From: Chloroflexota bacterium | Lineage (GTDB): Bacteria; Chloroflexota; Anaerolineae; Promineifilales; Promineifilaceae | Assembly (NCBI GenBank): GCA_022616275.1 | Contig: JAKEFB010000022.1 | Span: 1 to 64,000, forward strand | DNA: 64,000 nucleotides | Direction: 5' to 3' | In this document: one piece after another, positions 4,984 through 34,120 of the stretch | How the letters are laid out: each line of letters starts with the position of its first letter | Position numbering within the stretch: position 1 is the first letter of the stretch | Notes under the pieces: generated by a model | Told to the model about the DNA's origin: nothing | The model's input: the letters and a program-made list of their open reading frames with translations, nothing else | Databases searched by the model: none | Position numbers and translations under genes: made by a program

Positions 4984-4986
4984 GCT

Positions 4987-6896: not shown

Positions 6897-7580
6897 TTAT
6901 TCTTCCCCCTCTGGCGGCGTTTTAAGCTCTAACCGGCCGAGATAGATGAGCGTCTCCAAATCCTCGCTATCTTCAGGGCTATAGCGAGCGACGACCTGGC
7001 GGACCCTATCCAGTTCCTGGTCCGAGGCCAGGCCGACCATGCGCGACACGTCAGCCCAGTCCTGGGCGCGGGTGGCGTTAAGCTTCATCAACACCAGATA
7101 GGGCAAGTCCAACACCGGGTAGCCGGCCGGATCAGACCCCGGCCGGTTAAGAGCCTCCTCAAGCCAGGGATCGCTGCCAAAAAGAACGTCTACTTCAACA
7201 CCGTCCGGGGAGAGGAAAAGATAGCCCGGCACGGCAAGCGGGGTCTGGCGTGTAAAACCGGCCGCCTGCAACCGGTTTATGACTTCATCCCGGTCTGCTT
7301 CGCTAACCAGGATGTCTAAATCTCTAGTCATTCTCTCCGGCATGTAGGCGCGGGTGGCCACGCCGCCAATAATGGCCCAGGGAACACCTTGCAAAAGGTC
7401 ACGCAGGTCAGGCCAGGAAACCATTGCTGTTCTCCGCTTTAAAAATTCAAGGCTACTGCCGGTCCCCGCCTTTTGTTTACGCAGCCCCATTTCCAGGAAG
7501 AGCCGCCGTCTCTGGCGGAGGGTCAACCGGCCGTCAGGCGAGATTTTGGCCACGGCCGGCGGGATAGCATTACGGCTCAT
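6897..7580 (-). CDS. Nucleotidyltransferase-fold protein of the RiPP operon
   Basis: 227 residues from the ATG at 7580, which overlaps the end of the B2 gene by 11 bases; the longer frame would run far into B2. Residues about 60-100 hold the MNT-type signature WAIIGGVATRAYMPERMTRD followed by LDILV, where GG..R and DxD bind nucleotide and metal. Later residues are helical. Nucleotidyltransferase-fold proteins accompany HPr-kinase-like genes in some lasso-peptide clusters, where phosphate or nucleotidyl groups are added to the peptide. The N-terminal 45 residues are basic. It sits between B2 and the cyclase, which argues for a role in the pathway. An AbiEii-like antitoxin-type enzyme is the alternative, but no toxin partner is adjacent. 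Confidence 0.75.
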   Translation of the reverse strand: MSRNAIPPAVAKISPDGRLTLRQRRRLFLEMGLRKQKAGTGSSLEFLKRRTAMVSWPDLRDLLQGVPWAIIGGVATRAYMPERMTRDLDILVSEADRDEVINRLQAAGFTRQTPLAVPGYLFLSPDGVEVDVLFGSDPWLEEALNRPGSDPAGYPVLDLPYLVLMKLNATRAQDWADVSRMVGLASDQELDRVRQVVARYSPEDSEDLETLIYLGRLELKTPPEGEE

Positions 7581-8139
7581 GGCTGGTCTCCTCGTCGTTG
7601 GGCGGAAAGGAGAACACGACCGTAAAACCACGCCAGTTAACGCCTGGCTCGTAATAAGCCTTGCCGTCCAGGGTTAGCCAGGCGTGTCCGGTGATGGCCC
7701 GGTCGGGCTTGCCATCTACAAAACGGGCGCCGAAATGGACGGCCACCGGCAGGCCGGCGCGGCGCAGGAAATAGTAGCGGGTCAGGGAGCGGCGCAGACA
7801 GACGCCCAGGGGAGAGCGGCGCTCCAGCAGGGTGGCCAGGTCGGCCAGATCGCGGATAACTCGTTCTTGTTCTTTTTCCGGCCGCGCCGGGCTATCTTCG
7901 GCCGTTAATTGGGCCATCACCTCCGGCAAAGGGACGCGCATCCGGTCCGGCAACTGGCGGACGAAGGCGCGCATTTCCTGGAGCAAGGCCCGCCGGCCGG
8001 GATTGCCGGCCAGGCCGGGCAGTGAACCGGGCAAAAGCCAGAGGTGGCGCAGCCGGATCAACAACGGCCACCACAACGGCCGCAATCGCCGGACAGCCGG
8101 CAGCCGGGAGGCGCGGCGTAGCGTCGTCGTCAGGGCCAT
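7570..8139 (-). CDS. Lasso peptide biosynthesis B2-like leader peptidase
   Basis: 189 residues. The C-terminal two thirds match the transglutaminase-like B2 family: C114 in GVCLRRSLTRYYFLRRAGLP, H152 in GHAWLTLDGKAYYE, and D158 nearby form the expected Cys-His-Asp set. B2 proteins remove the leader from a precursor peptide once the B1 recognition protein has bound it. The N-terminus is basic with a helical LWWPLLIRLRHLWLL stretch. The start ATG overlaps the stop of B1 as TGATG, so translation is coupled. The C-terminal tail overlaps the nucleotidyltransferase gene start. Length and motif spacing are normal for the family. No precursor gene is found in this operon, so its substrate must be encoded elsewhere. 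Confidence 0.88.
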   Translation of the reverse strand: MALTTTLRRASRLPAVRRLRPLWWPLLIRLRHLWLLPGSLPGLAGNPGRRALLQEMRAFVRQLPDRMRVPLPEVMAQLTAEDSPARPEKEQERVIRDLADLATLLERRSPLGVCLRRSLTRYYFLRRAGLPVAVHFGARFVDGKPDRAITGHAWLTLDGKAYYEPGVNWRGFTVVFSFPPNDEETSHEP

Positions 8140-8411
8140 CAGGCGGCCTCCACCAGATTGTCTGTCATCATTTTGCCGGCCAGTTCCAGCAGATCGGCCG
8201 CCACCAGGCTGGTCTCGACGTCGTATTGGGCGGCCAGGGTGGCGGCGTGCTGGCCAATACTCTGCTGGCCGTCCAGCATCTCCCAGAACTGGGTGCCGAC
8301 CTTGTTGAGCGAGAAGTACGTGCCGGTGTCCAGGCGAATCAAAATGGCCTCGCCGGCCACGACCTCGTAGGTGGTGTTGGTCGAACGTTTGAGAACTGTG
8401 TTAGCGTCCAC
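8139..8411 (-). CDS. PqqD-like precursor-recognition protein (lasso B1 type)
   Basis: 90 residues, full length for a stand-alone RiPP recognition element. After VLKRSTNTTYEVV come the typical EAILIRLDTGTYFSLNKVGTQFWEMLDG strand-turn-helix region and a helical end (AADLLELAGKMMTDNLVE). PqqD-fold B1 proteins bind the leader of a precursor peptide and deliver it to B2 and the cyclase. Translation starts at a GTG preceded by a GAGGAG ribosome site and ends overlapping the B2 start. It is the first gene of the minus-strand operon B1-B2-nucleotidyltransferase-cyclase-EEP; the promoter should lie in 8412-8560, shared with the divergent kinase-like gene. Confidence 0.88.
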   Translation of the reverse strand: MDANTVLKRSTNTTYEVVAGEAILIRLDTGTYFSLNKVGTQFWEMLDGQQSIGQHAATLAAQYDVETSLVAADLLELAGKMMTDNLVEAA

Positions 8412-8560
8412 TCCTCTCCTCGGGTGATAGGTGTTAGAGTTTATCGGATATAACCTTCCGGAGGTTAGTGACTACTGCCAGCCTCTAGTGTCAAACCTCC
8501 GGGAGGTTATCAATTCGCGCCAATTCGTTGCCATTTCAATCGTTAGCTATACTCGGCGCC
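8412..8560. promoter_or_regulatory. Divergent control region between B1 and kinase gene, with AACCTCC palindromes
   Basis: This spacer must drive both divergent units. It contains a near-palindrome at 8451-8467 and AACCTCC-G-GGAGGTT at 8494-8508. The same 15-base palindrome recurs at 61188-61208. A TTGACA on the minus strand (8494-8489) has only a weak -10 partner. No precursor-like peptide with a leader motif is encoded on either strand. Confidence 0.4.
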
Positions 8561-9496
8561 ATGCGCTGGCAATTTCACGGCTTAATTATCGAAGGAACGA
8601 CAAATGATGCAACCCTGGCCGCCAGTTGGCGGCAATCTTTTGCCTCCCGGCCGGCCAGCACGGCCGACCCAGACCTGTGTTACCACCTTGACCTGGTAGA
8701 CCAACCGCCGGAGCCGCCGTCTGGCGCTCCCCAATTCCGCCAGGGCGACCTGTTAGCTTATTACCTGGATGGGGAAACGGCCGTGGCCCATTTCCCACGC
8801 TTCGGCCGGTTGCAGTTGAACCTGGCCCGGGGCGTGACCGAGGGGCAAATCGTGCCGGCCGCCCTGCGCACCTACGGCGTCCTGGAAGACATTATCGCCA
8901 TTGGCCTATCGCCGCACCTGCGCCGGCGGGGCCTGTTTCTCCTTCACGCCTTCGCCGCCGCCAGCTACGGCCGGGCCGCCCTTCTGGTGGGTGGCATTGG
9001 GGCCGGCAAGACGACGACCGGCATGGCCTTGCTCGACGCCGGCTGGCAGTTGCTGTCGAACGATTCGCCGGTAGTCAACGAGGTGGCGGAGGTACTCAGC
9101 TACCCGGGTGTCCTGGCTGCTTATCCTGACACGCTGGCCCGCTTTGCCGCTACGGCCCACCTGGCTACAACGACGCCAGGGCAAGAGGGGCGCCCTAAGA
9201 TTGTCGTGCCGGCCGAAAGCCTCTGGCCCGGCGTCTGGCTGGACAAAGCGCCGGCCGGGGCCATTTTCTTCCCCCAGATTGAAGCGCGGTCCGGCCACGC
9301 CCTGGAGCCCCTCACCCCGCCGGAAGCGCTCCGCCGTCTGTTACCCCACGCTGTGGAACAATGGGACCGGCCGTTGATTCCCCGCCACCTGGCCGCCCTG
9401 CGCCGGCTGGTGGAAGCCGCGCCGGCCTACACGCTACGCCTGGGACCGGAAGTGGCGGCTATTCCGCCACTCCTGGCGAGTGTGCTCCAAAGGTGA
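8561..9496 (+). CDS. HPr-kinase-like protein of RiPP locus
   Basis: 311 residues from the ATG at 8561 (a TTG at 8528 is in frame but less likely). A Walker A loop GGIGAGKTT lies at 144-152, followed by ALLDAGWQLLSNDSPVV with D168 at the catalytic Asp position of HPr kinase/phosphorylase. The N-terminal 140 residues replace the regulatory half of true HprK. Homologues in lasso clusters, such as the paeninodin kinase, phosphorylate a Ser on the precursor peptide. The gene diverges from the B1-B2-cyclase operon across a 150-base spacer. No PTS genes are seen, so a role in carbon regulation is unlikely. A second member of the family is at 33065-34120. Confidence 0.8.
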   Translation: MRWQFHGLIIEGTTNDATLAASWRQSFASRPASTADPDLCYHLDLVDQPPEPPSGAPQFRQGDLLAYYLDGETAVAHFPRFGRLQLNLARGVTEGQIVPAALRTYGVLEDIIAIGLSPHLRRRGLFLLHAFAAASYGRAALLVGGIGAGKTTTGMALLDAGWQLLSNDSPVVNEVAEVLSYPGVLAAYPDTLARFAATAHLATTTPGQEGRPKIVVPAESLWPGVWLDKAPAGAIFFPQIEARSGHALEPLTPPEALRRLLPHAVEQWDRPLIPRHLAALRRLVEAAPAYTLRLGPEVAAIPPLLASVLQR

Positions 9497-12030: not shown

Positions 12031-12037
12031 GTTAACC

Positions 12038-20202: not shown

Positions 20203-21783
20203 CTAAGCCTCCAACCCCAGCAATTCGGCCCCTTCGGAAATGGTGCCCTTATGGGTGATAGGGTTGAATTTGACCAGCCGGCGGGTGAGCCAGGCCAGGA
20301 GCGGCCGCAGCGGCGAGTTGATGGCGGCCCGTTTGAGGGCGCCTTCCCAATAATGCTTGAAGTAGCGGTGGCGCCAGCGCCAGCGCAGCAGCCTGTAATA
20401 AGGCGCCAGCAACCAGTGGCCCTGGGACCGGCCGACGAAGAGGATGTCGTTGACCTCGCTCATGACCTGGGCTTCGGCGTCGTCCATCCACGGCGTGTTG
20501 CCCCGGTTCAGGTCAAATCCACACCACCCTTCCTGGTTGGGCGGCGGCACGTAGCCCTGTTCCAGGGCCTTGGGCCACAGCGGCGTGCCGGGATAGGGCA
20601 TGTAGACGCACACGGAGCAGCGGATCTTATCGCTCAGGTCGCACAGGCGCTCAATCAGGTCAAAGGTAATCTTCGTGTCGGCGTCTGTCTCACCCGGCAG
20701 GCCGATGATAAAGGACAGGTTGGCTTCGACGTTGGGAGCAAACTCGACCAGGTGGCGAATGCCCCATTCAATTTGCCAATCTTTCTGGTCTTTCCACATG
20801 CTATCCAGGACGGCCTGCGACCCCGACTCGGCGCCAATGTTGACCCACTGGCAGCCGGTATCGTACATCCACTGAACAAACTCCGGCTTGAGCAGTTGCA
20901 CCCGGACCTGGCCACTCCAGGGCATACCCACCTTTTCGACCAGCCGCTGCATCGGCTTGATCCGGCCGAAAAGGTAATCGTCGGCGTAGTCCACGGCGTC
21001 TATCTGGTAATTTTCTTTGAGCCAGTTGATCTGGTTGAGAATGAATTCGTCCGAGTGCTGCCGCCAGGTGCGCTTCATGACCACTTCGTTGTAGCAGAAG
21101 CCGCAGCGGAAGGGGCAGCCACGGGAGATGTAAACCGGCATGGCTCGTTGATAGGGGCCGCTGGGAATGAGGTAAGCTTCAACGTCCGTCAACAGGTCCC
21201 AGCGCGGCCGGTACTGGTCCAGTTCCTGGATGAACGGCCGCTCCATGTGGAACATCGGCGTGCCGTCGGGCAGCTTGTAGGCCAGTCCGGCCACCGTAGA
21301 CCACTCCGGCTTTTCTTCGGTGGCCAGCTTCAGGGCAAAGTCCTGGGCTGTTTCTTCGCCTTCGTTGACGACGACGAAGTCCACGTACTCTTCCTTGAGC
21401 ACCTCCAGGGGCATGATGGTGGCGTGGACGCCGCCCCAGACGACCGGAATGCCCAAGGCACGGACGTGACGAGAAGCGTCAATGACCGGCTGGAGCTGCG
21501 GGCCGGTGATGGTGCTGAAGCCGACGAACAACGGCCGTTCCTCGGCCACCAGACGGATAAAGTCATCTACTTTATCGGCTGTATCGTGGAACAACCGGAC
21601 CTCAAAGCCGACCTGTTCCAGGGCGTCGGCCACGTACATGATGCCGAAGGGGGGGTACATGTCGCGGTGGTTGCGGTAATTGATGAGGAAGATTTTGCGG
21701 TTTACGTCCGTACGCTCGGGGGAAAGGGGCGCAGATCGAACGCTCAGGTCACTCATGGCAATGGTTGGGCCGTTAACAGACAT
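20203..21783 (-). CDS. Cobalamin-binding-type radical SAM protein
   Basis: 526 residues. Residues 30-150 look like the Rossmann-like B12-binding domain common in BchE-type enzymes (IFLINYRNHRDMYPPFGIMYVADALE, then VVWGGVHATIMP). The radical SAM core begins at 216 with ISRGCPFRCGFCYNEV, whose C223, C227 and C230 bind the 4Fe-4S cluster, and continues with GAESGSQAVLDSM and FIIGLPGETDADT. A C-terminal region of about 120 residues is rich in Trp and Arg. Such enzymes methylate or rearrange unactivated carbons; the substrate is unknown. It is the last gene of the minus-strand series starting near 26.2 kb, 31 bases after the Uma2 gene. No DxHxxG base-off motif is seen, as is usual for this class. 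Confidence 0.85.
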   Translation of the reverse strand: MSVNGPTIAMSDLSVRSAPLSPERTDVNRKIFLINYRNHRDMYPPFGIMYVADALEQVGFEVRLFHDTADKVDDFIRLVAEERPLFVGFSTITGPQLQPVIDASRHVRALGIPVVWGGVHATIMPLEVLKEEYVDFVVVNEGEETAQDFALKLATEEKPEWSTVAGLAYKLPDGTPMFHMERPFIQELDQYRPRWDLLTDVEAYLIPSGPYQRAMPVYISRGCPFRCGFCYNEVVMKRTWRQHSDEFILNQINWLKENYQIDAVDYADDYLFGRIKPMQRLVEKVGMPWSGQVRVQLLKPEFVQWMYDTGCQWVNIGAESGSQAVLDSMWKDQKDWQIEWGIRHLVEFAPNVEANLSFIIGLPGETDADTKITFDLIERLCDLSDKIRCSVCVYMPYPGTPLWPKALEQGYVPPPNQEGWCGFDLNRGNTPWMDDAEAQVMSEVNDILFVGRSQGHWLLAPYYRLLRWRWRHRYFKHYWEGALKRAAINSPLRPLLAWLTRRLVKFNPITHKGTISEGAELLGLEA

Positions 21784-21814: not shown

Positions 21815-22444
21815 TTACTCTTCGGTGACAGGGCCAACATTTTCGCCCATCAGGGCGGCCAGCTCCAGCGTCAGATTGGGAAACAGGCCAGGCGTAAACG
21901 GCTGGCCGGCGGTAATTGTCTGAGCCAATAAGTATCCTTCAGGCGTCAACCGGTACTCTTCAACTCCCAGGTCGTCCGGGCGCACAAGCCAATACCAGGA
22001 GACGCCGGCCCGCTGATAGCTCGTCAACTTCCTGGTGCGGTCGCGGCTTTCGGTGGATGGAGAAAGAATTTCGACCACCAGGTCTGGCACGCCATGAATC
22101 CGGCCGTCTTCTTCATTGTGGTGATCCAGGTGCTCGACGGCCAGAAAGACTAAGTCGGGCGCATACACTCGCCTTTCCGCCGGTAGATGCACCTCAATTT
22201 CTGGCCACACTGCTCCCAAGCCCTGGCTGGTCACGTGGGCATCTAGCGCCGAGCCCAGGCGCAGGGCGACTTTTTGGTGACGGCTGTGGGTGCGCGACAT
22301 CAGGATCAGTTCTCCATCTTCAAATTCGTAGTAGGGGGGGCCTTCGGGTAGGGCAAAGAATTCGTCCAGGCTGATGGTCTGGCGAGGCTGAATCTTGGAT
22401 TGCAGCGGAACGACGGTTGCCACAGTTATTTCCCTTGCCTTCAT
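21815..22444 (-). CDS. Uma2-family endonuclease-like protein
   Basis: 209 residues. Typical Uma2 (DUF820) order: TISLDEFFALPEGPPYYEFEDGELILMS at 24-51, then the PD-(D/E)XK core with YAPDLVFLAVE (Asp) and GVPDLVVEILSPSTESRDRTRKL (Glu...Lys), and AGVSWYWLVRPD. The family is widespread in Cyanobacteria and Chloroflexota and is assumed to be a restriction-type nuclease, but its role is not established. The start overlaps the methyltransferase stop by ATGA, so it is translated from the same message. Its presence in a biosynthetic-looking operon is unexplained. Confidence 0.9.
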   Translation of the reverse strand: MKAREITVATVVPLQSKIQPRQTISLDEFFALPEGPPYYEFEDGELILMSRTHSRHQKVALRLGSALDAHVTSQGLGAVWPEIEVHLPAERRVYAPDLVFLAVEHLDHHNEEDGRIHGVPDLVVEILSPSTESRDRTRKLTSYQRAGVSWYWLVRPDDLGVEEYRLTPEGYLLAQTITAGQPFTPGLFPNLTLELAALMGENVGPVTEE

Positions 22445-23340
22445 TTGCGGTGAAAAGCGTATAAGACCTGTTTATCCAGTTGCCGCACGCGCGGGGCAAA
22501 TTCCTTGCCCTCGGTCAGTTCGCGCCCGGAATGATAGCCGATTAAGCGCAATCCTCCTACGGCCGCGTCGGCGACAAGCTCATTATACTGGTAGAAATGA
22601 TAAAAAACACGACCCTGGGTGGCCTGCAGGCTGACCTGGTTAATAGCCGTGTCGCCAACCTCTCCTGGCCACACTCCGGCCCGGCGGCCCAGGTCCAGCA
22701 GGCTGGTCCAGGTGCGCCAGCGCAGGGTGCGGGCCAGGCCGCGGGCATGCCAGCCTAAACTACTCAACCCCTGGCGGTGCGAGCCCAGCAGCGCGTCGGC
22801 CGGCGTCGCGCCATTGGTCGCCTGGCTGGCCGCCGGCTGAGGGCTTGGGGAACGCAGCCGCTGCCAGCCCCACCAGGCGTAACAGGTCAGCGCCGGAGCC
22901 ACGTTGTCCAGGGCCAGGATGAGCGCCCCGCCCGGCCGCAGCACCCGGCCGATGTTGGCGAAGACGCGCTGGCGGGCCTTGCGGCCGGGGATGTGTTGCA
23001 AGGCGGCAATCAAAATGAGGGCCACGTCGAAGCTGGCCGGGGCGCAGGGGATAGCTTGAATGTCGCCTTGCACCAGCGGCAGTTTCAGACCAGCGGTGGT
23101 ATATGTTTCTCGCGCTGCCCAGACCATTTCCCAGGTAATGTCCAGGCCGTGAACGTCGTACCCCTGGGAGGCCAGGGCCAGGCCGGCCCGGCCGCTGCCG
23201 CAGCCCAGGTCCAGCACCCGGGCCGGCGGCGGCGCGTAGCGGGCCAGCATCTCAGCCTCGCAGGCCTGTAAGCCCTGGTGGCTGAACTCCTTCCAGAAAG
23301 CGACCACTTCCGGCTGGGCGTACTTTTCGGTGATCTTCAT
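22441..23340 (-). CDS. SAM-dependent methyltransferase (class I)
   Basis: 299 residues. The SAM-binding motif I RVLDLGCGSGRAG is at about 40-52, followed by YDVHGLDITWEMVWAARE (motif II region), GDIQAIPC and FDVALILIAALQHIPG, with LRPGGALILAL as the post-III strand. It therefore resembles the Methyltransf_11/25 group that acts on small molecules or peptides. A middle insertion of about 60 residues (after WWGWQRLRSPSP) and the C-terminal beta region are less conserved. It overlaps both neighbours by four bases (ATGA), which ties it firmly to the SUMF1-like and Uma2 genes in one operon. The substrate is unknown. Confidence 0.85.
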   Translation of the reverse strand: MKITEKYAQPEVVAFWKEFSHQGLQACEAEMLARYAPPPARVLDLGCGSGRAGLALASQGYDVHGLDITWEMVWAARETYTTAGLKLPLVQGDIQAIPCAPASFDVALILIAALQHIPGRKARQRVFANIGRVLRPGGALILALDNVAPALTCYAWWGWQRLRSPSPQPAASQATNGATPADALLGSHRQGLSSLGWHARGLARTLRWRTWTSLLDLGRRAGVWPGEVGDTAINQVSLQATQGRVFYHFYQYNELVADAAVGGLRLIGYHSGRELTEGKEFAPRVRQLDKQVLYAFHRK

Positions 23341-24185
23341 AGACTTTCGTAAAGCACACGGAAACCGGTGCCTTGGGCGTGATAATCTACACTAGGGATC
23401 GTCACACTGCAGGCGCTACGCACGTTGCCCTTCGTATGGTGAATACTGTACCCCCAGGAGCCGCCTTTGACCACGTGAAAGCCGGGCAGGTCGGAATTGT
23501 AGAGGCTGGAAGTCCATTCCCAGATGTTGCCGCTCATGTCCAGGCAGCCATAGGGGGAGACGTTTTGGGAGACCGCGCCTACCGGCCAGGGGTAGCCATT
23601 GCGCCAGTACCAGCCGGCGCGGGCCCATTCGCGCCGCGGCCGGACCAGGAGGCTAAAGAGGTAGCTTTCCAGGCCAACAGGGAATTTTTTCTGCCACTGG
23701 ATCTCCGGCCGGGGCGGGGTATTGCCCCAGGGGTAAAGACGGCCGTCGCTCCCCCGGGCGGCTTTTTCCCACTGAAATTCGCTGGGCAGAGTACAGGGCC
23801 GGTCCAGCCGCTCCGACAACCAGGCGCAATAGGCGTAAGCGTCCTGCTGGGTAACGTCCACGACGGGCAGGTCGTCGTGGCCGTCGGGATAGGTAGAGGT
23901 GGGGGTGTAGGCCCTGAGAAAGGCCCCCCGCCAGCCGCCGACCACCCGGTACCACTGCCCCACCCAACAATGGCCGGTTGCTTCCAGGAACTCTCGCCAC
24001 TGGCGATAGGTAATGGGGGCCCGGCCGAGCCAGAACTCCGGCAGCTCCATTGTCTGGCGCGGCCGGAGCGGTGGGCACTTTTCCAACCGCTCGTAACATT
24101 CCTCCGGGCCATAAATGAAGGGGCCGGCCGGAACGTGAACAAAATCGTCCAGGCCTGGCCAGGCGGCCGGTTGCCCCTTACCCAT
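23337..24185 (-). CDS. SUMF1/formylglycine-generating-enzyme-like protein
   Basis: 282 residues with the family's C-type-lectin-like fold markers: FVHVPAGPFIYGP at the start, FWLGRAPITYRQWREFLEATGH, LPVVDVTQQDAYAYCAWLSERL, LPSEFQWEKAARGSDGRLYPWGN, VSPYGCLDMSGNIWEWTSSLY, VKGGSWGY and GTGFRVLYES at the end. True formylglycine-generating enzymes have a paired active-site cysteine motif before the GFR end; here only a single RSAC is found, so sulfatase activation is unlikely. SUMF1-like domains also serve in EgtB-type C-S bond forming enzymes and in binding proteins. It sits between the His-rich membrane protein and the methyltransferase, overlapping both. Confidence 0.88.
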   Translation of the reverse strand: MGKGQPAAWPGLDDFVHVPAGPFIYGPEECYERLEKCPPLRPRQTMELPEFWLGRAPITYRQWREFLEATGHCWVGQWYRVVGGWRGAFLRAYTPTSTYPDGHDDLPVVDVTQQDAYAYCAWLSERLDRPCTLPSEFQWEKAARGSDGRLYPWGNTPPRPEIQWQKKFPVGLESYLFSLLVRPRREWARAGWYWRNGYPWPVGAVSQNVSPYGCLDMSGNIWEWTSSLYNSDLPGFHVVKGGSWGYSIHHTKGNVRSACSVTIPSVDYHAQGTGFRVLYESL

Positions 24186-26220
24186 CGTCCAGCCCGATGA
24201 GCGCCAGCAGCCCCAGGGCTGCCCCGGCGCCGAAGCTGGGCAGCGCCTCCTGGGCCGTCACCTGCAGGGCCCGTTCCGGCCGGCGGAAACCAACCAACCC
24301 CAGGGCGTTGCCCACTGCCCCGGCCAGGGCGGCTGCAGCCGCCCATTCCGGCCGGCCGCGCCGGGCCAGGGCCAGGCTGAGGGCGTTTCCGGCCGGGCCC
24401 AGGCCGGCCCACTTGCGCGCCGGCTGGGGGCCAAGGGCGATGATGGCGTCGCCCACCAACCGCTGGGCGGCCGAGATGTGATGGGTGTGGCCCAAGGCGT
24501 GGCCGGGGTCCACCCGGGCCAGTGGGTCCAGCCGCTGGCGATAGGCCGCCAGCCAGGTCCCGGCCAAAGCGGCCAGGGTGGCAACCTGCCAACTGCGGCG
24601 CGGCAGGGTCAGGGCGGCCGAGGCCAACGGCAGCAGCCAGTCCAGGTTGAAACCGCGATATTCCTCGATGCGCAGGTGGTACTCCGGCCCGGCTGTGGCC
24701 GCTGCCAGGGCGGCCGCCGCCGCGGCCGGGTAGAGCGTAGCCTGAATAAGCCCTTCGACAGGATCGTCTTCTCGCCCGGGCAGCGCGGCTACCGGGGCCA
24801 GCGCCGCCGTGGCCAGGGCCAGCAGCTTGGGTGCATACGAAGGCGGGTAGAGTGCCTGGAGGTCAGTATGCTCGTGGGAATGGTCGTAGTGGTTATGCTC
24901 ATGGTGAACGTCATCATGGTGATGGTGTTCGTGATCATGAGCATGAGGATGATCATGGTCATGGTCATGGTCATGACCATGCGGGTGGTCATGACCATGC
25001 GGGTGGTCATGATTATGGGGGTGGGTATGGTCGTGATGGTCATGGTCGTGGCGCCGGGCCACGATCTGGTTGCGGCGCTTTTCAACGAAGGGGAGGGCGA
25101 CCGCGCCGGCCGCCCCAGCGGCTACCAACGGCACAGCAGCCACCTCCGGTAAGCCAAGCAAGCGGGTGACGGCCGCGCCGGCCAGCCCGGCCGGGACGAG
25201 GCCGGCCAGGGCCAGCTCGACCGGGGCCGGGGCCGGAATGGGGGTCGGCGGGTGGGGATCGGCGCTGGCGACAAAGCCGGCCCGTTCCAGCGCCTGGCGC
25301 AGGTGTTCCAGATAATGCAGCCCTTCCAACGGCTCGGTGGCGTGCAGAACGCGGAAGAAATTGACATAACAAAAGCGGATACCCCGCTCACGGGCCAGGT
25401 GAGCCCAGTTGTGGGCCGCGGCGTGGAAATCCAGGGGGACCATCTCTTGGGGTGAGAGCCGATGGGCCAGAACGACGTGCGGAGCGCGCCGTTTGGCAAT
25501 AAACCAGTCCCCCTTCTGGTGGCGTGACTCGGCAAAATAGACCAGCGATAAGTCGTATTCGGCCATGGCCGCCAGCGTTTCGTCCAGGTGCATTTCGTGG
25601 CCCAGGATCATCTCCCCGGCAAAAGCCACCAGGTGGCCCAATTGGGCAGCCTGGGCCAGTGTGCGCTCCAGCAACGCTTTTTCCGGCCAGGCATAGCTCA
25701 CCGGCCGGGGGACGACCCCCAGACCGTGCCGGGCAATCTGGCCGGCCACCTCCGTTTCAAAACCCAGGCCAATTTCGCCAATCGTAGGCAGGTTGCCGGC
25801 GAAAACCAGCGTCTCCTCCTGCACGTCGGCCTGGGTGTAAGGCAGGCGGGCGTTGAGTTCGTCGCCGAGAGATGCCAGCAAAGCAGCCGGGCCATAGAGA
25901 TAATTCCAATGGCCAACGGCCGGCGAGCCGGCGCGGGGCTGGATCGGGGCGCGCGGGGCCAGCCGTCCCAGGGCGATCAGCCGGTCGAGCGCCAGCTCCG
26001 GCAGAGAAACGTGGGTTGCGCCGTGGCTGGCTATTCGAGCCAGCATCTCGTCAAAAGAGAGGCCGGCCCGGATGGCGGCTGCCTGGGCGTCGTCGTAATC
26101 CACACAAATAGCGACGCGGTTATTGCGCCGTTCCCACTGCTGGCGGCGGGACAGGACGCGACCGGCCGCCAGAGCGCCGGCCGTGGTTAGCGAGAGAGCG
26201 AGGAGATTGGATAGTTTCAT
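24178..26220 (-). CDS. DUF5693-like membrane protein with His/Asp-rich metal-binding belt
   Basis: 680 residues from the ATG at 26220. An N-terminal membrane helix (LLALSLTTAGALAAGRVL) precedes a domain with AICVDYDDAQAAAIRAGLSFDEMLARIASHGATHVSLPE, which resembles DUF5693. From about residue 385 a striking belt of more than 60 residues consists almost only of His, Asp, Glu and Pro (HDHDHHDHTHPHNHDHPHG and further), then several helices at the C-terminus (LLALATAALAPVAAL, ALTLPRRSWQVATLAALAGTWLAAY). Such belts in transporters and metallochaperones hold Zn, Ni or Cu. DUF5693 proteins have no established reaction. It overlaps the SUMF1-like gene by 8 bases and is the first of that set. A metal-supply role for the following enzymes is a guess. 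Confidence 0.7.
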   Translation of the reverse strand: MKLSNLLALSLTTAGALAAGRVLSRRQQWERRNNRVAICVDYDDAQAAAIRAGLSFDEMLARIASHGATHVSLPELALDRLIALGRLAPRAPIQPRAGSPAVGHWNYLYGPAALLASLGDELNARLPYTQADVQEETLVFAGNLPTIGEIGLGFETEVAGQIARHGLGVVPRPVSYAWPEKALLERTLAQAAQLGHLVAFAGEMILGHEMHLDETLAAMAEYDLSLVYFAESRHQKGDWFIAKRRAPHVVLAHRLSPQEMVPLDFHAAAHNWAHLARERGIRFCYVNFFRVLHATEPLEGLHYLEHLRQALERAGFVASADPHPPTPIPAPAPVELALAGLVPAGLAGAAVTRLLGLPEVAAVPLVAAGAAGAVALPFVEKRRNQIVARRHDHDHHDHTHPHNHDHPHGHDHPHGHDHDHDHDHPHAHDHEHHHHDDVHHEHNHYDHSHEHTDLQALYPPSYAPKLLALATAALAPVAALPGREDDPVEGLIQATLYPAAAAAALAAATAGPEYHLRIEEYRGFNLDWLLPLASAALTLPRRSWQVATLAALAGTWLAAYRQRLDPLARVDPGHALGHTHHISAAQRLVGDAIIALGPQPARKWAGLGPAGNALSLALARRGRPEWAAAAALAGAVGNALGLVGFRRPERALQVTAQEALPSFGAGAALGLLALIGLDDG

Positions 26221-26229
26221 ATCAAAAGT

Positions 26230-26314
26230 AACGAGGACTGAGTGAGTCTGCAAGTAACTTACCTACTCGCAAACTCGCAAACTTGCCCACTTGCATCCTT
26301 GCATCCTTGCCCAC
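26230..26314. repeat. Intergenic short-word repeats (ACTCGCAA/CATCCTTG)
   Basis: ACTCGCAAACTCGCA (26265-26279) also occurs at 40049 onward. TGCATCCT is doubled just downstream, and TGCAAGT (26249-26255) pairs with ACTTGCA (near 26290). It fills the 94-base gap between the nucleotidyltransferase and DUF5693 genes, so the two may be separate transcription units. Confidence 0.55.
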
Positions 26315-27502
26315 TCATTGGCGACTCATGGTCAGGCGCTTGAGGAGCAGGCGGCCGGTGTCGGTCCGGCCGGCGTCCAACGCGGTACGCCAGACCTGCC
26401 AGCGGCCGCGCCAGTCGGTGGCCCAGCGCGCCGTCTCGGCCCGGTCGCTCAGACCGCGCCAGAGTCGCCGGCCGACGGTCGTCAGCGGCTTCTGCTGGGT
26501 GCGCTGCAAAATAGTGGCCAGGTCCAGGCGCTCGATGCGGCGGCGCAGGCTCGCGGGCGTGGCCTGGGCCAGCGCCTGGGTCACCTCGGCTGGAACAGGG
26601 GCCTGAAGCAGCTTATGGGCCAGGCTGAGAGCCGCCAGGGCGTAAGGGGCGGCGCGTTGCTCAATGGCCCGGTTCACGAACAGCGGCCACTCTAGACGAG
26701 CGCCCGACGCGTCGAGCCGGGTCACGGCCAGCAAGTCGGCCAGTTGGACTATGGACGGCGCGCCCATAATCAGGTGGAAGCAGAAATGGACGCACAGGTG
26801 CAGCAGCAAATCCTCCACGGCCAGGACCCGGCCGGGCTGCCCGCCAAGCGCCACCGTTACCGAGCGTTCGCGAACGCCGGGCGTCACGTCTACCTTCAGG
26901 CCAAACCACGACTCTTCCAGGGAGGTGTGCGGCTCGACAGTCCGGCCGGCCGCGGCCGAAAGGTAGGGATTGGACGTGGCGGCCTCTTCGCCGGTGCGGC
27001 GGAAAGTGCTGGTATGCTTGGTGACGCCGGGGCCAAAGTCGGCCGATTTGTGCTTGCCGCTGTAGCCCAGATCTGCCAGCAGTTGCTCGGCCGCCGGCAG
27101 CTCGGCCGGCGTAAAGAGCAGGTCAATGTCGTTCATCGGCCGCAACGCCGGGTCCGGGTAGTAACAGGCGGCCAGGTGGACCCCCTTCAGGGCAATCGGC
27201 TGCAACTGGCGGGCGGCGCAGGCTTCCAGCACTTCGCCCAACTGGGCGTAGATGGCGGCATTGCGCTGGGCCTGGGCCTGGTAGGTGACCTTGAGCTTGA
27301 CGGCCGCCCGCGCCGGTAGCTCCAGGCCCCAACCGGCCAGCCGCTGTTGTAACTGTGGCGCCAGGCCAAAGACGATGGCCCGGACCACCAGGTCATCCCA
27401 CTGTACCTGGGCTTGAACGCAATCAGACTCCCAGTTGCTGGGAGTCTGATTGGGATGAAGTGCGTTGAGAATCAATTGTGTGGTCGTAACGGCGGAACTC
27501 AT
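26315..27502 (-). CDS. Nucleotidyltransferase family protein (NTP_transf_5 type)
   Basis: 395 residues. The core QPIALKGVHLAACYYPDPALR then PMNDIDLLF (about 118-150) is the signature of the NTP_transf_5 group: a Lys-Gly pair, then a DxD that binds metal and nucleotide. The rest is helical and includes a conserved-looking VEPHTSLEESWFGLK and LLLHLCVHF. Members of this group are often found beside lasso-peptide and other RiPP genes, and their reaction is not settled. It is the first full gene downstream of the two identical 21-residue peptide genes (97 bases away), and a paralogue lies at 29313-30635. The most likely substrate is the adjacent peptide, or a carrier involved in its modification. 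This is inference. Confidence 0.8.
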   Translation of the reverse strand: MSSAVTTTQLILNALHPNQTPSNWESDCVQAQVQWDDLVVRAIVFGLAPQLQQRLAGWGLELPARAAVKLKVTYQAQAQRNAAIYAQLGEVLEACAARQLQPIALKGVHLAACYYPDPALRPMNDIDLLFTPAELPAAEQLLADLGYSGKHKSADFGPGVTKHTSTFRRTGEEAATSNPYLSAAAGRTVEPHTSLEESWFGLKVDVTPGVRERSVTVALGGQPGRVLAVEDLLLHLCVHFCFHLIMGAPSIVQLADLLAVTRLDASGARLEWPLFVNRAIEQRAAPYALAALSLAHKLLQAPVPAEVTQALAQATPASLRRRIERLDLATILQRTQQKPLTTVGRRLWRGLSDRAETARWATDWRGRWQVWRTALDAGRTDTGRLLLKRLTMSRQ

Positions 27503-27599
27503 TCAATAACAAAAGGAGGCACGCTACAAAAGTCAGGCCGTTTTGCACCGACCTTTTTGATTCAACAACAAGTCTGTTGTGGCTGACGCCACGCTAAAC

Positions 27600-27665
27600 T
27601 TAGTGAGAGCTAAAGGTGACTTGGGTCAGCTCTTCGTGCTTGGTGATTTCAGGCTTCTCGTACAC
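27600..27665 (-). CDS. 21-residue leader-like peptide, copy 2 (GTG start)
   Basis: The frame encodes the same 21 residues as copy 1: MYEKPEITKHEELTQ followed by VTFSSH, but starts at GTG behind an AGGAGGG ribosome site. It lies exactly 100 bases downstream of copy 1. The pattern Y-x2-P-x-I-x(5)-E-L-T matches the leader consensus of lasso-type precursors (YxxPxL...T), which B1 proteins bind. What follows the T is only seven residues (QVTFSSH), too short for a lasso ring, but it offers Thr, Ser and His side chains for phosphorylation or other tailoring. Silent changes (GAA/GAG, CAG/CAA, TTC/TTT) between copies with unchanged protein argue for selection on the peptide. Confidence 0.7.
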   Translation of the reverse strand: MYEKPEITKHEELTQVTFSSH

Positions 27666-27699
27666 GGTGTACCCTCCTGAAGTGAAATGACCTGGCTGC

Positions 27700-27765
27700 T
27701 TAGTGAGAGCTGAAGGTGACCTGGGTCAGTTCTTCGTGCTTGGTGATTTCGGGCTTCTCGTACAT
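27700..27765 (-). CDS. 21-residue leader-like peptide, copy 1 (ATG start)
   Basis: MYEKPEITKHEELTQ then VTFSSH, stop TAA. An AGAAGGAGAGA ribosome site is 5 bases upstream of the ATG. The promoter-like TTGCGC-16-TATACT at 27883-27856 would give a 5' leader of about 85 bases. The peptide fits the leader pattern of lasso-type RiPP precursors recognised by PqqD-like B1 proteins; the only B1/B2 genes in view are 19 kb away at 7570-8411. Downstream in the same direction are copy 2 and a nucleotidyltransferase. As a gene it is supported by two conserved copies each with a strong ribosome site. Its product and fate are unknown. Confidence 0.75.
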   Translation of the reverse strand: MYEKPEITKHEELTQVTFSSH

Positions 27766-27899: not shown

Positions 27900-29234
27900 T
27901 CAAGAGTGGGTCTGCCGTTCTTCCCAGGCCGGCCGGGGACGGCGCCAGGTATTGAGCAGTCCGGCCACGGCCATTGCCAGGTCTAGAAGGAAAAAGAGAG
28001 GCAGCCAGCCCAGGCGTAGCCACAAGGCGGGCGGTGCGCCGGCCAGCCGCAAAGCCACCAGGACCTGGACCAGGGGGGTAAGCAGGTGAAGGAGCAACGC
28101 CGGCCGGAGCAGCCCACGTTGGGGGGCGAGGAGGGCCAGCACTCCGCCCAGCAACAACGCCACCCGGTCCAGGTAGCCCAGGGAAAAGAGCAGCAGCTCC
28201 AGGCGCAACAGAGGGGGCGGCCGGGAATCCAGCAGAGTCGGCGGGGCCTGCTCGGCGGCGACCTCGTTAAAGCCCCTGGCCCAGCGAGTGTGCTGCCGCC
28301 AGTAGCCGCCGACTGTGCGCGGCACAGCGTGGCTACTGATAGCCCTTGGCTCAAAGCGAGTCTGCCAGCCGGCGCGGGCCAGCCGCATCGTCAGGTCGGT
28401 GTCTTCCAGCAGGGCGGCCGGCTTGAAATTGCCGGCCCGTTCTAACGCCTCACGGCGGTAGGCGCAGTTGGAGCCCAGGATGGCCGGGACCAGCTTCAGC
28501 CGGTCCTTGGCCCGAATAGTCACCAATTGGTGGACCAGGTTCTCGAAGGTGGCGTAGGTAGCCGCCGGACTGTCCAGGGGGTTGCTCACCAGCCGCCGGC
28601 CGGTAACGGCCGCCACCCGCTCGTCGGCAAAGTGGGGGACCAGGCAACGCAACGTATCCGGCCGCGGCCGCTCGTCGGCGTCGTAAACGACGACAATTTC
28701 TCCCTGGGGAAAAACCACCAGGGCCTGGTTGAGCGCGCTGGCCTTACCCTGGTTGCCAGGCAGGGCCAGTGCGTTGACGTGCGCCCGGCCATTGGCCCAG
28801 GTACACAACAGGGTCTGGCTGCCGTCAGTGGAGCCGTCGTCAATCAGGACGATAGTCAGCCGGCCGGCCGGGTACTCCAGATTGTCCAGCGCCGCCAGGA
28901 ACTCCGGCAGCTCCCGGCGCTCGTTGCGGACGGGGGCCAGCAGCAGCACCGCCGGCCACGCCTGTGCCGAGGAGGGAGCATCCTCAGATGCGACCGAACC
29001 GCCCAATGATTTGTCAGAGTCTCTGAAAGAATACGCTACTGCTGAGGAGGGAGCATCCTCAGATGCGACCGTCGCGGCATCTGAGGATGCCGCACTCCTC
29101 GGTGAGCGGCCGGGGAGGAGCGCCGCAACTGTCAGCCACCAGCGCCGGGCCGTAAAGAGGAGCAAGATGGCAGCAATTGGCCAGGCCAGCAGGTTGAAGG
29201 CGGTGGCCAGGAACGGCCGGCGGCTGTGTTTCAT
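27900..29234 (-). CDS. Membrane glycosyltransferase, family 2
   Basis: 444 residues. One or two N-terminal helices (residues 10-40), then a GT2 domain: APVRNERRELPEFLAALDNL, VLIDDGSTDGS, VVYDADERPRPD (the DxD), LEDTDLTMRLARAGW (catalytic ED) and QHTRWARG (the QxxRW motif of processive-type enzymes). Several C-terminal membrane helices follow. It would transfer sugar from an activated donor to a membrane-bound acceptor. Residues about 42-90, between the helices and the GT2 domain, hold a duplicated VASEDAPSSA segment encoded by a 28-base direct repeat (28969-28996 and 29044-29071) plus an inverted copy, so repeat DNA has entered the linker in frame. The gene diverges from the nucleotidyltransferase at 29313. 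Confidence 0.9.
   Translation of the reverse strand: MKHSRRPFLATAFNLLAWPIAAILLLFTARRWWLTVAALLPGRSPRSAASSDAATVASEDAPSSAVAYSFRDSDKSLGGSVASEDAPSSAQAWPAVLLLAPVRNERRELPEFLAALDNLEYPAGRLTIVLIDDGSTDGSQTLLCTWANGRAHVNALALPGNQGKASALNQALVVFPQGEIVVVYDADERPRPDTLRCLVPHFADERVAAVTGRRLVSNPLDSPAATYATFENLVHQLVTIRAKDRLKLVPAILGSNCAYRREALERAGNFKPAALLEDTDLTMRLARAGWQTRFEPRAISSHAVPRTVGGYWRQHTRWARGFNEVAAEQAPPTLLDSRPPPLLRLELLLFSLGYLDRVALLLGGVLALLAPQRGLLRPALLLHLLTPLVQVLVALRLAGAPPALWLRLGWLPLFFLLDLAMAVAGLLNTWRRPRPAWEERQTHS
28969..29100. repeat. In-frame repeat insertion in the GT2 gene
   Basis: A 28-base word starting GAGGAGGGAGCATCC is present exactly at 28969-28996 and 29044-29071; a near-complement (GCATCTGAGGATGCC onward) is at 29077-29100. 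The block can fold into alternative hairpins and encodes only a flexible Ser/Ala/Asp linker. Confidence 0.8.
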
Positions 29235-29312: not shown

Positions 29313-30635
29313 GTGCAAACCACCACAAGGCATCGGCAAGCCCTGCGCTTGATACAACTGTCAGCCGAAGAACAATTTTTATGGGACTGCGCCCTCACCT
29401 GGCGAGACCCCCGGCCGCCAGAGGCGCCGGAAAAGCTGGATTGGTCCAGGATCGTCTCAATCGCCCGGGCCAACAAGATGGCTACCCTCCTGGGCCAGGT
29501 GCTTGGCCAGACAGGGCTGCTGGCCTGCCTGCCGCCGGCCGCCGGCCAGGAGCTGGACGAGGCTATGGCCAGGCTGGCCGGCAAGGCGGCCGACTACCGG
29601 CGGGTCCTGGGCCAGTACATGCCCCTGGCCTGGGAACAGGGACTGGAAACGATCCCCCTCAAAGGGTTGTGGGTCTCCAGCCACGTCTACGGTAACCCGA
29701 CCATGCGCCCCGGCCACGACATGGACATCCTGGTCCGGCGCGGCCGGGTGGCCGATTGTATTGCTATCCTGGAACGCCTGGGCTTCGGCCGCTACTGGCC
29801 GCAACAACTGGCCGACGCCTTCTACCAACGCCACCACCTCCACCTGGAGTTGTGCCTGTCCGATTGCTGGACGTGGGTCGAAATCCACTGGGCCTTTGAC
29901 CATCCCCGCACCCGGCTGACGATAGATTACGAAGCGGTGCTGAACCGGGCCAGGCCGGGAGAGCTGCTGGGCGTCCCGGTCTGGGACCCGTCGCCGCCCG
30001 ATTTGCTCCTCTACCTGGCCGTCCACCTGGTCAAGCACGCCGTTTACCTGCCGGCCGTCCTGGATCGGCCCGAACTGCCCCGCCTGATCCTGGCCGACGG
30101 CCGGTTAATGTACTTTCTAGACCTGGCTGAGGCGGTCAAGGTTTACCGGGAAGAGATAGATTGGCAACTGGTGATTGCCCTGGCCCGCGCCTACGGCGCT
30201 GTGGACATCCTGGGGGCGGTGCTCCGCGTTTGCCATGACATCCTGGGCGCGCCGGTCCCGGAGGAGGCGCTGGCGGCGCTGCCTGTCGCCCGCCTGGGGC
30301 CTGTCACCCGCCGGCTCATGAACCGGGTGGCCAGCCATACCATCGCCACCTACCTGGGCCGGCCGGCAAGCGCCTTCTGGCATTTTCTGCTGGCCGAAAA
30401 CACGAAATTTGTCGTCCGGCCGGTCCGCCTGCTGGATTTCGCCACTTACGCTGCACCCGGCCGGAACTATTTGCAGCGCCGCTACGGGCGGGCCACGGCC
30501 GGCGCGGCCGCCAGCCACCTGGCCCGCACTTTGGGGGAGTACACCCGGCTGGGCCTGGACACTGTGGCCTTCACCTGGCAACGCCGGCGCCGGCCGCTGC
30601 CCGTTTTTATGACCCGGCCGGAGGGGACAGGGTGA
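29313..30635 (+). CDS. Nucleotidyltransferase family protein (NTP_transf_5 type), paralogue
   Basis: 440 residues, starting at a GTG. The signature is ETIPLKGLWVSSHVYGNPTMRPGHDMDILVRR (about 113-144), with the LKG and DMD pattern of the NTP_transf_5 group, followed by HHLHLELC and WVEIHW, and helices to the end. It is a distant paralogue of 26315-27502. It opens a plus-strand series: flippase 7 bases later, PhyH-type oxygenase, kinase-like protein and PMT-like glycosyltransferase. The group is frequent near lasso and capsule-like gene sets. The substrate is unknown; activation of a peptide or a lipid-linked glycan by nucleotidyl transfer is the simplest guess. Confidence 0.8.
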   Translation: MQTTTRHRQALRLIQLSAEEQFLWDCALTWRDPRPPEAPEKLDWSRIVSIARANKMATLLGQVLGQTGLLACLPPAAGQELDEAMARLAGKAADYRRVLGQYMPLAWEQGLETIPLKGLWVSSHVYGNPTMRPGHDMDILVRRGRVADCIAILERLGFGRYWPQQLADAFYQRHHLHLELCLSDCWTWVEIHWAFDHPRTRLTIDYEAVLNRARPGELLGVPVWDPSPPDLLLYLAVHLVKHAVYLPAVLDRPELPRLILADGRLMYFLDLAEAVKVYREEIDWQLVIALARAYGAVDILGAVLRVCHDILGAPVPEEALAALPVARLGPVTRRLMNRVASHTIATYLGRPASAFWHFLLAENTKFVVRPVRLLDFATYAAPGRNYLQRRYGRATAGAAASHLARTLGEYTRLGLDTVAFTWQRRRRPLPVFMTRPEGTG

Positions 30636-32787: not shown

Positions 32788-33015
32788 ATGGTAAAGGGCA
32801 ATTACTCTCGGGGCAGCGAGTTCCCCCACGAGGAATTTGTGCAGCGTGCAATTGAGAGCTATTTTTCGGCGTTATGCTTCAAGGAAGAGGTAGGTGGACA
32901 TGCTGACCTGGTTTGCGCAAATTCCGAGACAGGTGAACGATGGCTCGTCGAAGCGAAGGGCCTTACGACACAGGTCGGGTTAGATTTTCGCACAATTCTT
33001 TCGCGACGAGGATGA
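32788..33015 (+). pseudogene. Truncated PD-(D/E)XK-like protein
   Basis: 75 residues: FPHEEFVQRAIESYFSALCF, then ADLVCANSETGERWLVEAKG, with D...E-x-K as in PD-(D/E)XK nucleases, then LDFRTILSRRG and a stop. Full-length relatives known to me in outline go on after LDFRTGLGQLVQR; here the frame breaks exactly there, so this is a frameshifted or truncated remnant. It separates the oxygenase from the kinase-like gene and has lower GC than both. It probably has no function, although the core strand-Lys motif is intact. Confidence 0.5.
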
Positions 33016-33064: not shown

Positions 33065-34120
33065 TTGAATCTAACGGCCGCTGATTTTGCTGGCTTATAT
33101 AACCGGTACGCCGGCGAACTGGAGGATTTTTGGGGGCGGCGGGCCAATGGGCCGCGTTACGCGCGGGAGTTTACCCTCTTTGGCCGGCCGCTGCGGGTGA
33201 CAAGCAACCACCAGGGAGTATTGGCCGCAGTAGACCAGACCTGCCTGCTTTACACCACAGCTCCGGCCACCGGCCACCCACCCCTGGCCATCCACCTGGT
33301 GGTCCGCGAAAGCCCTCTCGACCCCGGGCCGCCGCCCGAAGACCTGCTGGCCATCAACCAGTACACCGGCTACGACGAGTGGCTGGCCATTCAAATGGGG
33401 GCATGGGGCCATTGCCAAGTGGAGCTGGCTGCCGGCCGGGCCGTGGCCGTGCTCACGCCACAACTGGCCGAACGGCCGGAACTGGTCGGCCGGGGGCTGC
33501 TGGCAACGATATTCAACAACCTCCTCACCGGCCAGGGCTTCAGCATGTTGCACTGCACCGGGCTATGCCGGGGTGCGCGTGCCCTGTTGATTATGGCTCC
33601 TCACAATACCGGGAAGTCTACCCTGGCTTTCCGGCTGGCGCTGGCCGGCTACCGGCTGATTTCCGATAGTCAAATTTACCTCTTGCCCGAGGATGGGCCG
33701 CTGGCGTTACTGGGCTTTCCGGTTGGCCGGGTCAAACTGCGCCAGGACGTGGTCGCCCATTTTCCCCAGGCGCAGCCTTTTCTGATGCCTGAACCGGTGC
33801 GGAACGAAGTCAAGTATGCCTGTGATTTGTGGCGCTGGGATGCAGAACGCGTCCAGGCCACTGCCTTCTACCCGGAAGCCATAGACCTGTGCCTGCTGCA
33901 GCGCAGCGACCAGCCCGGCACCAGCCTGGTCCCGGCCGTTCCTGAGGCGGTCTGGGAAGCGGTTATGGCCAACAGCCTCTATTATGACACGGCCGCCGCC
34001 TGGCTGCGTAACCTGGCTCCCATCGAGCGGTTAATCGGCCAGGCCCGCGCCTATCATCTGCTCCTTGGGACCGATCCGGCCAGTGCGCTGCCGGCTCTGG
34101 CTGCTCTGGAATCACCATGA
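33065..34120 (+). CDS. HPr-kinase-like protein, second copy
   Basis: 351 residues, starting at TTG (no ATG before residue 111). A P-loop MAPHNTGKST lies at 177-186 (Ala replaces the usual first Gly), and YRLISDSQIYLLP places D201 at the catalytic Asp seen in HPr kinase. The N-terminal 160 residues are specific to this subfamily. It is related in plan to the kinase-like protein at 8561-9496 but longer. HPr-kinase-like enzymes in RiPP clusters phosphorylate Ser of the peptide. The 21-residue peptides of this locus have two Ser near their end, which makes them candidate substrates. The stop overlaps the start of the PMT-like gene by ATGA. Confidence 0.75.
   Translation: MNLTAADFAGLYNRYAGELEDFWGRRANGPRYAREFTLFGRPLRVTSNHQGVLAAVDQTCLLYTTAPATGHPPLAIHLVVRESPLDPGPPPEDLLAINQYTGYDEWLAIQMGAWGHCQVELAAGRAVAVLTPQLAERPELVGRGLLATIFNNLLTGQGFSMLHCTGLCRGARALLIMAPHNTGKSTLAFRLALAGYRLISDSQIYLLPEDGPLALLGFPVGRVKLRQDVVAHFPQAQPFLMPEPVRNEVKYACDLWRWDAERVQATAFYPEAIDLCLLQRSDQPGTSLVPAVPEAVWEAVMANSLYYDTAAAWLRNLAPIERLIGQARAYHLLLGTDPASALPALAALESP

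Follow-up and report, generated by a model that had tools for sequence, protein, structure and literature searches.

A stretch of 64,000 nucleotides from a Chloroflexota bacterium (the whole of it hereafter called the window) carries two tandem genes for one and the same 21-residue peptide, which probably is a RiPP precursor belonging to the gene set encoded around it. Its relatives are conserved through to the C-terminus, evolve under purifying selection, keep a leader motif in the register of known RRE-bound leaders and occur together with the same enzymes, in two genomes within a single contiguous locus. A literature search, with most subscription journals outside its reach, found no earlier description of the peptide or of the system.

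Two copies of the peptide gene

A sequence-only reading of this DNA had described two minus-strand frames with the same 21 residues, starting with ATG and GTG and each with its own ribosome site, and this was confirmed: both have an AGGAG-type site at a normal distance from the start.

27700..27765, minus strand: candidate precursor peptide, copy 1, MYEKPEITKHEELTQVTFSSH; ATG start, 21 aa
27773..27777, minus strand: AGGAG, ribosome-site-like sequence 5' of copy 1
27600..27665, minus strand: candidate precursor peptide, copy 2; GTG start, 21 aa, MYEKPEITKHEELTQVTFSSH apart from the start codon
27673..27678, minus strand: AGGAGG, ribosome-site-like sequence 5' of copy 2

The genes are held in a direct repeat of 66 nt with 94% identity and a start-to-start spacing of 100, in agreement with the tandem duplication proposed earlier, and the four differences between the repeat copies are all silent. 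The host genome (8.53 Mb, 309 contigs) contains the peptide in these two copies only. A weak terminator-like hairpin (27535-27554, minus strand) lies between copy 2 and the NTP_transf_5 gene, one such site being found where 0.5 was expected by chance. Within the 5' part of that gene there is an inverted repeat (27412-27460; 23 bp, 87%, 3-nt loop). An Rfam scan of 26.5-29.5 kb gave no family above its cut-off.

Spread and conservation of the peptide

Peptides with the consensus YxKPx[I/L/V/M]xKHxxLxxVTFSxH-stop were found at full length in 22 genomes besides the window's own; a further genome, G019, has a 15-residue match ended by a contig edge, bringing the merged searches to 24 genomes. Among 99 genomes comprising the host's and its relatives, 10 carry the peptide (G019 included), all from one family, and the 46 non-family genomes of this set had no match. 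A class-wide profile search matched 17 of 397 sampled genomes: 4 belong to the window's family, another 12 come from other families and have full peptides, and G675 is a weak partial match that is not counted. An earlier, narrower profile gave no confident match outside the class in a 400-genome sample of the phylum, where 4 genomes matched, the host's included, and the other three matches (10 residues, E 0.02-0.05) were taken as chance.

It had been set as a test beforehand that similar peptides should stand upstream of homologous nucleotidyltransferases. The NTP_transf_5 profile found 24 loci when searched against one genome per species, and 17 of them (L055-L071) were close relatives with at least 47% identity. 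The peptide was present upstream in 15 of the 15 close relatives with enough upstream sequence, L065 and L070 being left out for too short an upstream stretch; nine of the 15 loci had served to build the query, so that the independent result is six of six (L059, L066, L067, L068, L069, L071). It lies about 150-430 nt upstream of the aligned NTP_transf_5 start. Upstream of the seven distant NTP_transf_5 matches (L072-L078) it was absent. The records of the close relatives are Chloroflexi/Chloroflexota, Anaerolineae, Anaerolineales, Anaerolineaceae or Ardenticatenaceae MAGs, with L068 titled only 'bacterium'. The peptide genes are thus real, beyond what chance would produce. One genome, G013, has two separate peptide loci (L025, L026), whose peptides differ (MYKKPQVKKHKELSQITFSSH and MYKKPKVKKHDQLSQVTFSSH).

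An alignment of 29 copies from 23 loci, comprising 20 distinct Tyr-to-His sequences, showed nine positions invariant in all 29: Y, K, P, K, L, T, F, S (Ser19) and the C-terminal H. A further His, ninth when counting from the Tyr, is kept in 28 of 29 copies, and the penultimate residue (Ser20) is S in 26 copies, with A in two others and M in one. Precursor lengths range from 21 to 29 aa, with a near-invariant F-S-x-H tail, and a fixed tail suggests one defined small product.

Tandem pairs occur at 6 of the 23 loci. Compared over 19 codons, from the Tyr to the penultimate residue, the pairs differ at 4, 7, 6, 3, 0 and 4 silent positions, giving 24 silent and no replacement differences. A simple neutral count that takes 11.7 of the 57 sites of the window copy as synonymous gives this pattern p = 2.9e-17. 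The peptide is under purifying selection. Gene conversion may act on the tandem copies as well, but since the differences are silent only, conversion alone is an insufficient explanation.

Leader register, RRE and B2 protease

RRE-dependent RiPP leaders share the motif [Y/W]xxPx[L/V/I/F/A/Y]. The proposed Y-x2-P-x-(L/I) leader held across the family: YxKPx is found in 29 of 29 copies, followed by I, L or V in 27 and by M in 2. In linear polyphosphorylated peptides (LPPs; PMC13381572), leaders have their Tyr at -16 and are cleaved after Thr -1, and lasso leaders are described as carrying YxxPxL from -17 to -12 and a Thr at -2. Both kinds of leader accordingly place the threonine 15 residues past the tyrosine, which in our peptide is the invariant Thr17. 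If Thr17 is the leader threonine, the core is FSSH by an LPP-type cut or SSH by a lasso-type cut. It is likely, then, that the leader makes up nearly the whole peptide and that the core has at most four residues. A leader boundary at Leu13-Thr14 was rejected on the Tyr-to-Thr register. The idea of a precursor-like peptide with a minimal tail was supported, whereas its leader threonine, thought to have seven residues after it, had to be moved to Thr17 with four, leaving a tail shorter than claimed.

The PqqD-like partner that had been pointed out in the window is an RRE (8139-8411). Ranked by alignment it was closest to TbiB1, with PbaB1 next and LppB lower, and the RREs matched TbiB1 with E 3.7e-12 and LppB far more weakly, with E 0.0037. 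Residues N33 and D70 of LppB are described as fixing the proline kink and the tyrosine of the leader (PMC13381572). Their counterparts here are N36 and D73, which all 7 RREs aligned share (11 were first chosen); this mapping assumes that residue numbers in the deposited chain and in the paper differ by 18, as deduced from the distances N-to-D and D-to-F. The C-terminal half is divergent in four of 13 RREs (L121, L122, L127, L131), and the Asp was not seen in the stretch read; perhaps an insertion interrupts the domain in these. Judging from its homologues, the RRE would bind the leader of the 21-mer and the neighbouring B2 protein would cleave it. The window B2 scored 45.3 against the cut-off of 33 of NF033537, and its L124 homologue fell below it (28.1).

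Motif scans near the RRE operon in relatives found no other plausible precursor; the scans were YxxP-based, so that precursors lacking YxxP would be missed, and were judged by eye. Motif-bearing frames in several loci, plus one (L042) in 23 RRE loci, were judged spurious in this way.

The gene set and its loci

In the window the system lies in two parts, at 4.2-9.5 kb and 20.2-27.8 kb.

26315..27502, minus strand: NTP_transf_5 protein (PF14907), first gene after the peptides; D125 and D127 shared by all 10 sequences aligned
24178..26253, minus strand: DUF5693 membrane protein with a His-rich loop; weak TIM-barrel-type structure matches only
23337..24185, minus strand: FGE-sulfatase-fold protein (PF03781); 61-78% identity to peptide-locus relatives
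22441..23340, minus strand: SAM-dependent methyltransferase; present in L128 and L147 too
20203..21783, minus strand: B12-binding radical SAM enzyme; 65-78% identity to relatives in the same system
8528..9496, plus strand: HprK-like P-loop protein; H-K-N-D in place of H-K-D-D
8139..8411, minus strand: RRE (PqqD/B1-like); putative Tyr-leader contact residues N36 and D73
7570..8139, minus strand: B2 leader-peptidase-like protein; NF033537 above cut-off; Cys and His kept in 12 aligned sequences
6897..7631, minus strand: small NTP_transf_5-like protein of the RRE operon; under the Pfam cut-off
4987..6846, minus strand: AsnB-type glutamine amidotransferase; MCG start intact, lasso cyclase score too low
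4204..4983, minus strand: endonuclease/exonuclease/phosphatase (EEP)-fold protein; in L146 and L147 a relative immediately precedes the peptide
27900..29234, minus strand: GT2 glycosyltransferase; with the cassette in several lineages
29313..30635, plus strand: second NTP_transf_5 protein
33065..34120, plus strand: second HprK-like protein; H-K-D-S

The peptides are followed on the same strand by the genes for NTP_transf_5, DUF5693, the FGE-fold protein, the methyltransferase, a Uma2-type protein and the B12 radical SAM enzyme. In the operon at 4204-9496, which is found in relatives too, the HprK-like gene is divergent from those for the RRE, B2, the small NTP_transf_5-like protein, the AsnB-type amidotransferase and the EEP-fold protein. 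In L146 and L147 the two parts are joined, with the peptide, EEP, NTP_transf_5, DUF5693, FGE, radical SAM, HprK, RRE, B2 and amidotransferase genes contiguous. The peptide and HprK/RRE share one contig in L068 and L059, and in L059, L065, L068, L127 and L128 no more than about 10 kb separates HprK or HprK/RRE from cassette genes. The RRE is on the peptide's contig stretch in L146, L147, L068 and L059 and about 19 kb away in the window, and the B2 protease belongs to the peptide locus in L146, L147 and L068. In many genomes the two gene groups, RRE included, are on different contigs. Four loci (L149-L152) have the radical SAM gene directly after the peptide and then NTP_transf_5 (38-44% identity). 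An ABC ATPase gene is near the cassette in L020-L022, L025, L026 and L127; no relative of it was found in the window.

Several other features of the window were recorded. The region that separates the two parts of the system contains a pair of minus-strand genes (9529-18304) for a penicillin-binding protein with a PBP C-terminal domain and a 2038-aa bacterial alpha-2-macroglobulin. A PhyH-family oxygenase (31966-32703, plus strand) is encoded between flippase-like and second HprK-like genes, and a 64% relative of it occurs near the peptide cassette of L067. The protein at 36153-36989 (minus strand) has a C-terminal effector-associated domain EAD7. A 75-aa ORF (32788-33015, plus strand) has a VEAKG motif, presumably resembling that of PD-(D/E)xK nucleases; considered as an RRE, it was rejected, with no Pfam match and no visible resemblance.

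Co-occurrence across genomes

The peptide travels with these enzymes. Among the 99 genomes, a close HprK was present in 9 of the 10 peptide genomes and in 2 of the 89 others; the corresponding figures are 9/10 and 2/89 for NTP_transf_5, 9/10 and 1/89 for FGE, and 9/10 and 2/89 for radical SAM. Fisher tests gave p 3e-10 to 6e-11 over the 99 genomes and 1e-7 to 2e-8 within the 53 family members, values that kinship among the genomes makes optimistic. Here a close HprK means at least 56% identity (11 of the 37 genomes with any match), a cut set after a score gap had been seen. The radical SAM enzyme, searched at 1e-100, was in none of the 46 non-family genomes of this set.

Of the 12 peptide genomes outside the family, 11 encode an HprK-like protein (40-54% identity) together with the radical SAM enzyme (65-69%), a count that covers peptide genomes only. 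The HprK paralogues of peptide-free family members show 26-40%, so the out-of-family matches are in part no better in identity, although higher in score. RRE genes are present in 10/10 and 11/12 peptide genomes, but as they are common in these genomes generally, their presence alone carries little information. There were exceptions: G032 has the peptide, NTP, HprK, RRE and B2 genes and lacks close FGE and radical SAM genes, with no AsnB or EEP relative within the 20 kb examined; G004 (75% complete) has the peptide and no HprK match; G487 (81% complete) has it with neither an HprK nor a radical SAM match; and G029 and G040 have a close HprK and no peptide match.

The sequence-only reading had linked the peptide to flanking nucleotidyltransferase and HPr-kinase-like genes, and that part stood, in co-occurrence as in shared loci. 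It had left the B12 radical SAM, FGE-like and amidotransferase genes unmentioned, and the chemistry is probably broader than the phosphorylation or nucleotidylation it envisaged.

Predicted tailoring enzymes

The kinase motif is reported as His-Lys-Asp-Asp, with all four residues required in ThcoK. All 23 sequences of the 8528-type HprK family have Asn in place of the first Asp of this motif (N-D), and all 6 of the 33065 family have Ser in place of the second (D-S); in a weak match, V-A-D-D of the HPr kinase 1ko7 aligned to L-S-N-D. As each family is short of one motif Asp, kinase activity is uncertain. Phosphorylation of the peptide is plausible, and we give an even chance to a serine being phosphorylated at some stage. 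Ser20 as the obligatory site is weakened by the Ala or Met that replaces it in 3 of 29 copies.

The AsnB-type protein of the window scored 252 bits with the lasso cyclase model NF033535, against a cut-off of 525, and passes asn_synth_AEB (TIGR01536); its Cys-Gly start, with the glutaminase Cys, is intact in every one of 9 sequences aligned. The FGE-like proteins have [IV]HH in the region where the Cys pair is expected, which we take to be that of human FGE Cys336/341, in 11 of 11 aligned sequences, and we rejected a formylglycine-generating role for them; L066 has PPH, and we therefore propose no motif in place of the Cys pair. For EgtB/OvoA-type chemistry on the C-terminal His there is a lead only, the EgtB match being to its FGE-type part, and AlphaFold modelled the FGE-like protein poorly (pLDDT 52). 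A Foldseek search with the DUF5693 model (pLDDT 70) gave weak matches, none at E 0.001. Residues ~400-460 of that protein form a long His/Asp-rich loop, zinc-transporter-like, with a sub-threshold ZIP match. A PDB search with the NTP_transf_5 profile gave no match.

Relation to known systems and alternative explanations

LPPs (Popov et al. 2026, PMC13381572) share with our system the YxxP leader with its Thr 15 residues past the Tyr, a discrete RRE, an HprK-like protein, an NTP transferase, a glycan-locus setting and the absence of a macrolactam cyclase. One may ask, then, whether the peptides are a Chloroflexota branch of the LPPs, with the same leader logic, HprK acting on a core Ser, an NTP transferase and a core shrunk to FSSH. 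The LPP motif YxxPxVLxHQxIxFETxxS (PMC13381572) is matched in 7 of its 11 columns if conservative changes are allowed, a value that shuffles reach with p 4e-5 (0.003 when Tyr and Pro stay in place), and the HprK-like, NTP_transf_5 and RRE genes are present in a glycan-related locus. Only 5 of the columns match exactly, however (shuffle p 0.001, rising to 0.05 once Tyr and Pro are held); these tests use all 11 defined columns, the version with the 7 matching columns being biased.

Other features set the two systems apart. LPPs of Bacillota are described as having precursors of 35-200 aa with a variable C-terminal core phosphorylated at Ser3, and an archaeal-type SpI leader peptidase (PMC13381572). 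In contrast, the system studied here belongs to Chloroflexota and has precursors of 21-29 aa with a near-invariant core, probably of at most four residues; a lasso-type B2 is present, and no SpI-type peptidase was seen among the Pfam-scanned window proteins; and by sequence the equivalent of Ser3 is Ser20, the residue replaced in three copies, with Ser19 invariant instead. Unlike LPP loci, it includes radical SAM, FGE-like and amidotransferase genes and an altered kinase motif, and its RREs match LppB far below TbiB1. LPPs also have an MsbA-like exporter (PMC13381572); here the ABC ATPase gene stands near the cassette in some loci, with no relative found in the window. We therefore regard an LPP branch as rather unlikely.

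The phosphorylated lasso peptides (paeninodin, pseudomycoidin and Bsf; PMC9266682, PMC10368454) share the RRE (B1), B2, an HprK-like kinase, a nucleotidyltransferase, an Asn-synthetase-family protein and the YxxPxL leader. Here, by contrast, no ring is possible, a canonical AsnB glutaminase replaces the cyclase, the tail is fixed and there are extra tailoring enzymes. We file the system as an RRE-dependent RiPP variant near LPPs and phosphorylated lasso peptides, a member of neither.

The PQQ system (PqqA/PqqD) likewise has a very short, conserved precursor, and PqqA leaders are said to bear the same RRE-binding motif. PqqA has a Glu-x3-Tyr cross-link pair, whereas the tail Q-V-T-F-S-S-H lacks a Glu/Tyr pair, and no PqqE-, PqqC- or PqqB-type genes were among the annotated neighbours.

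A different possibility is that the peptide escapes processing altogether and serves at full length as a small subunit, structural or regulatory, of a single enzyme such as the NTP_transf_5 protein. Its near-uniform length, near-invariant C-terminus and tight link to the NTP gene would suit such a role; a leader-type motif in exact register, conserved RRE contact residues, a B2 protease encoded alongside the peptide in L146, L147 and L068, and the arrangement of L149-L152, where radical SAM comes first, would not, and we consider it improbable. Attenuator-type leader ORFs, whose translation would control the gene behind, are a quite improbable reading of these frames: they do stand upstream of biosynthetic genes, and the weak terminator-like site follows copy 2, but residue-level conservation reaches the C-terminus, two copies are present at 6 of 23 loci, the distance to the downstream start varies (~150-430 nt), radical SAM rather than NTP is downstream in L149-L152, and the peptide has no run of a single amino acid. 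A true lasso peptide, which the YxxPxI leader, the Thr at Y+15, the discrete RRE and the B2 protein would call to mind, is refuted and given next to no weight, given the at most four residues after Thr17, the cyclase scores and the intact glutaminase Cys; as had been anticipated, no lasso ring is possible, FSSH or SSH being too short and without an Asp or Glu to close it.

Proposed pathway and significance

We consider it likely that, taken as a whole, the system makes an RRE-guided RiPP with a core limited to the final three or four residues of the peptide. The RRE at 8139-8411 would grip Tyr2-x-x-Pro5-x-Ile7, and the F-S-x-H tail would be offered to the tailoring enzymes while the leader is still attached. 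The HprK-like protein might phosphorylate Ser19, and the NTP_transf_5 protein might add a sugar or nucleotide to this phosphate, much as the nucleotidyltransferase PsmN is reported to load the phosphate in pseudomycoidin. The B12 radical SAM, FGE-like and AsnB-type proteins could act on Phe18, His21 or the C-terminal carboxylate, and the B2 protease would cleave after Thr17 or Phe18, freeing FSSH or SSH; how the tail is modified, and in what order, is conjecture. The product might act at the cell surface alongside the neighbouring glycan genes, and a surface-related role is put forward tentatively.

It is possible, though we put it somewhat below an even chance, that the system represents a new RiPP class, in which a peptide that is almost all leader donates a fixed (F)S-x-H to a B12 radical SAM enzyme, an FGE-fold protein, an amidotransferase and a kinase/nucleotidyltransferase pair, yielding a cofactor-like or surface-glycan-linked product by a PQQ-like logic with unrelated chemistry.

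If the proposed pathway is right, the fixed core, as in PQQ, would point to a conserved small molecule and not to a diversifying natural product, and to our knowledge such a core would be among the smallest RiPP cores. The peptide would supply the precursor for an RRE/B2/HprK/radical SAM gene set for which the motif scans had found none. The phosphopeptide-RiPP logic, restricted to Bacillota according to the LPP report (PMC13381572), would then reach beyond that phylum. Finally, the peptide would provide a short, readily synthesised substrate for the RRE, B2, HprK-like, radical SAM and FGE-like proteins of these bacteria.
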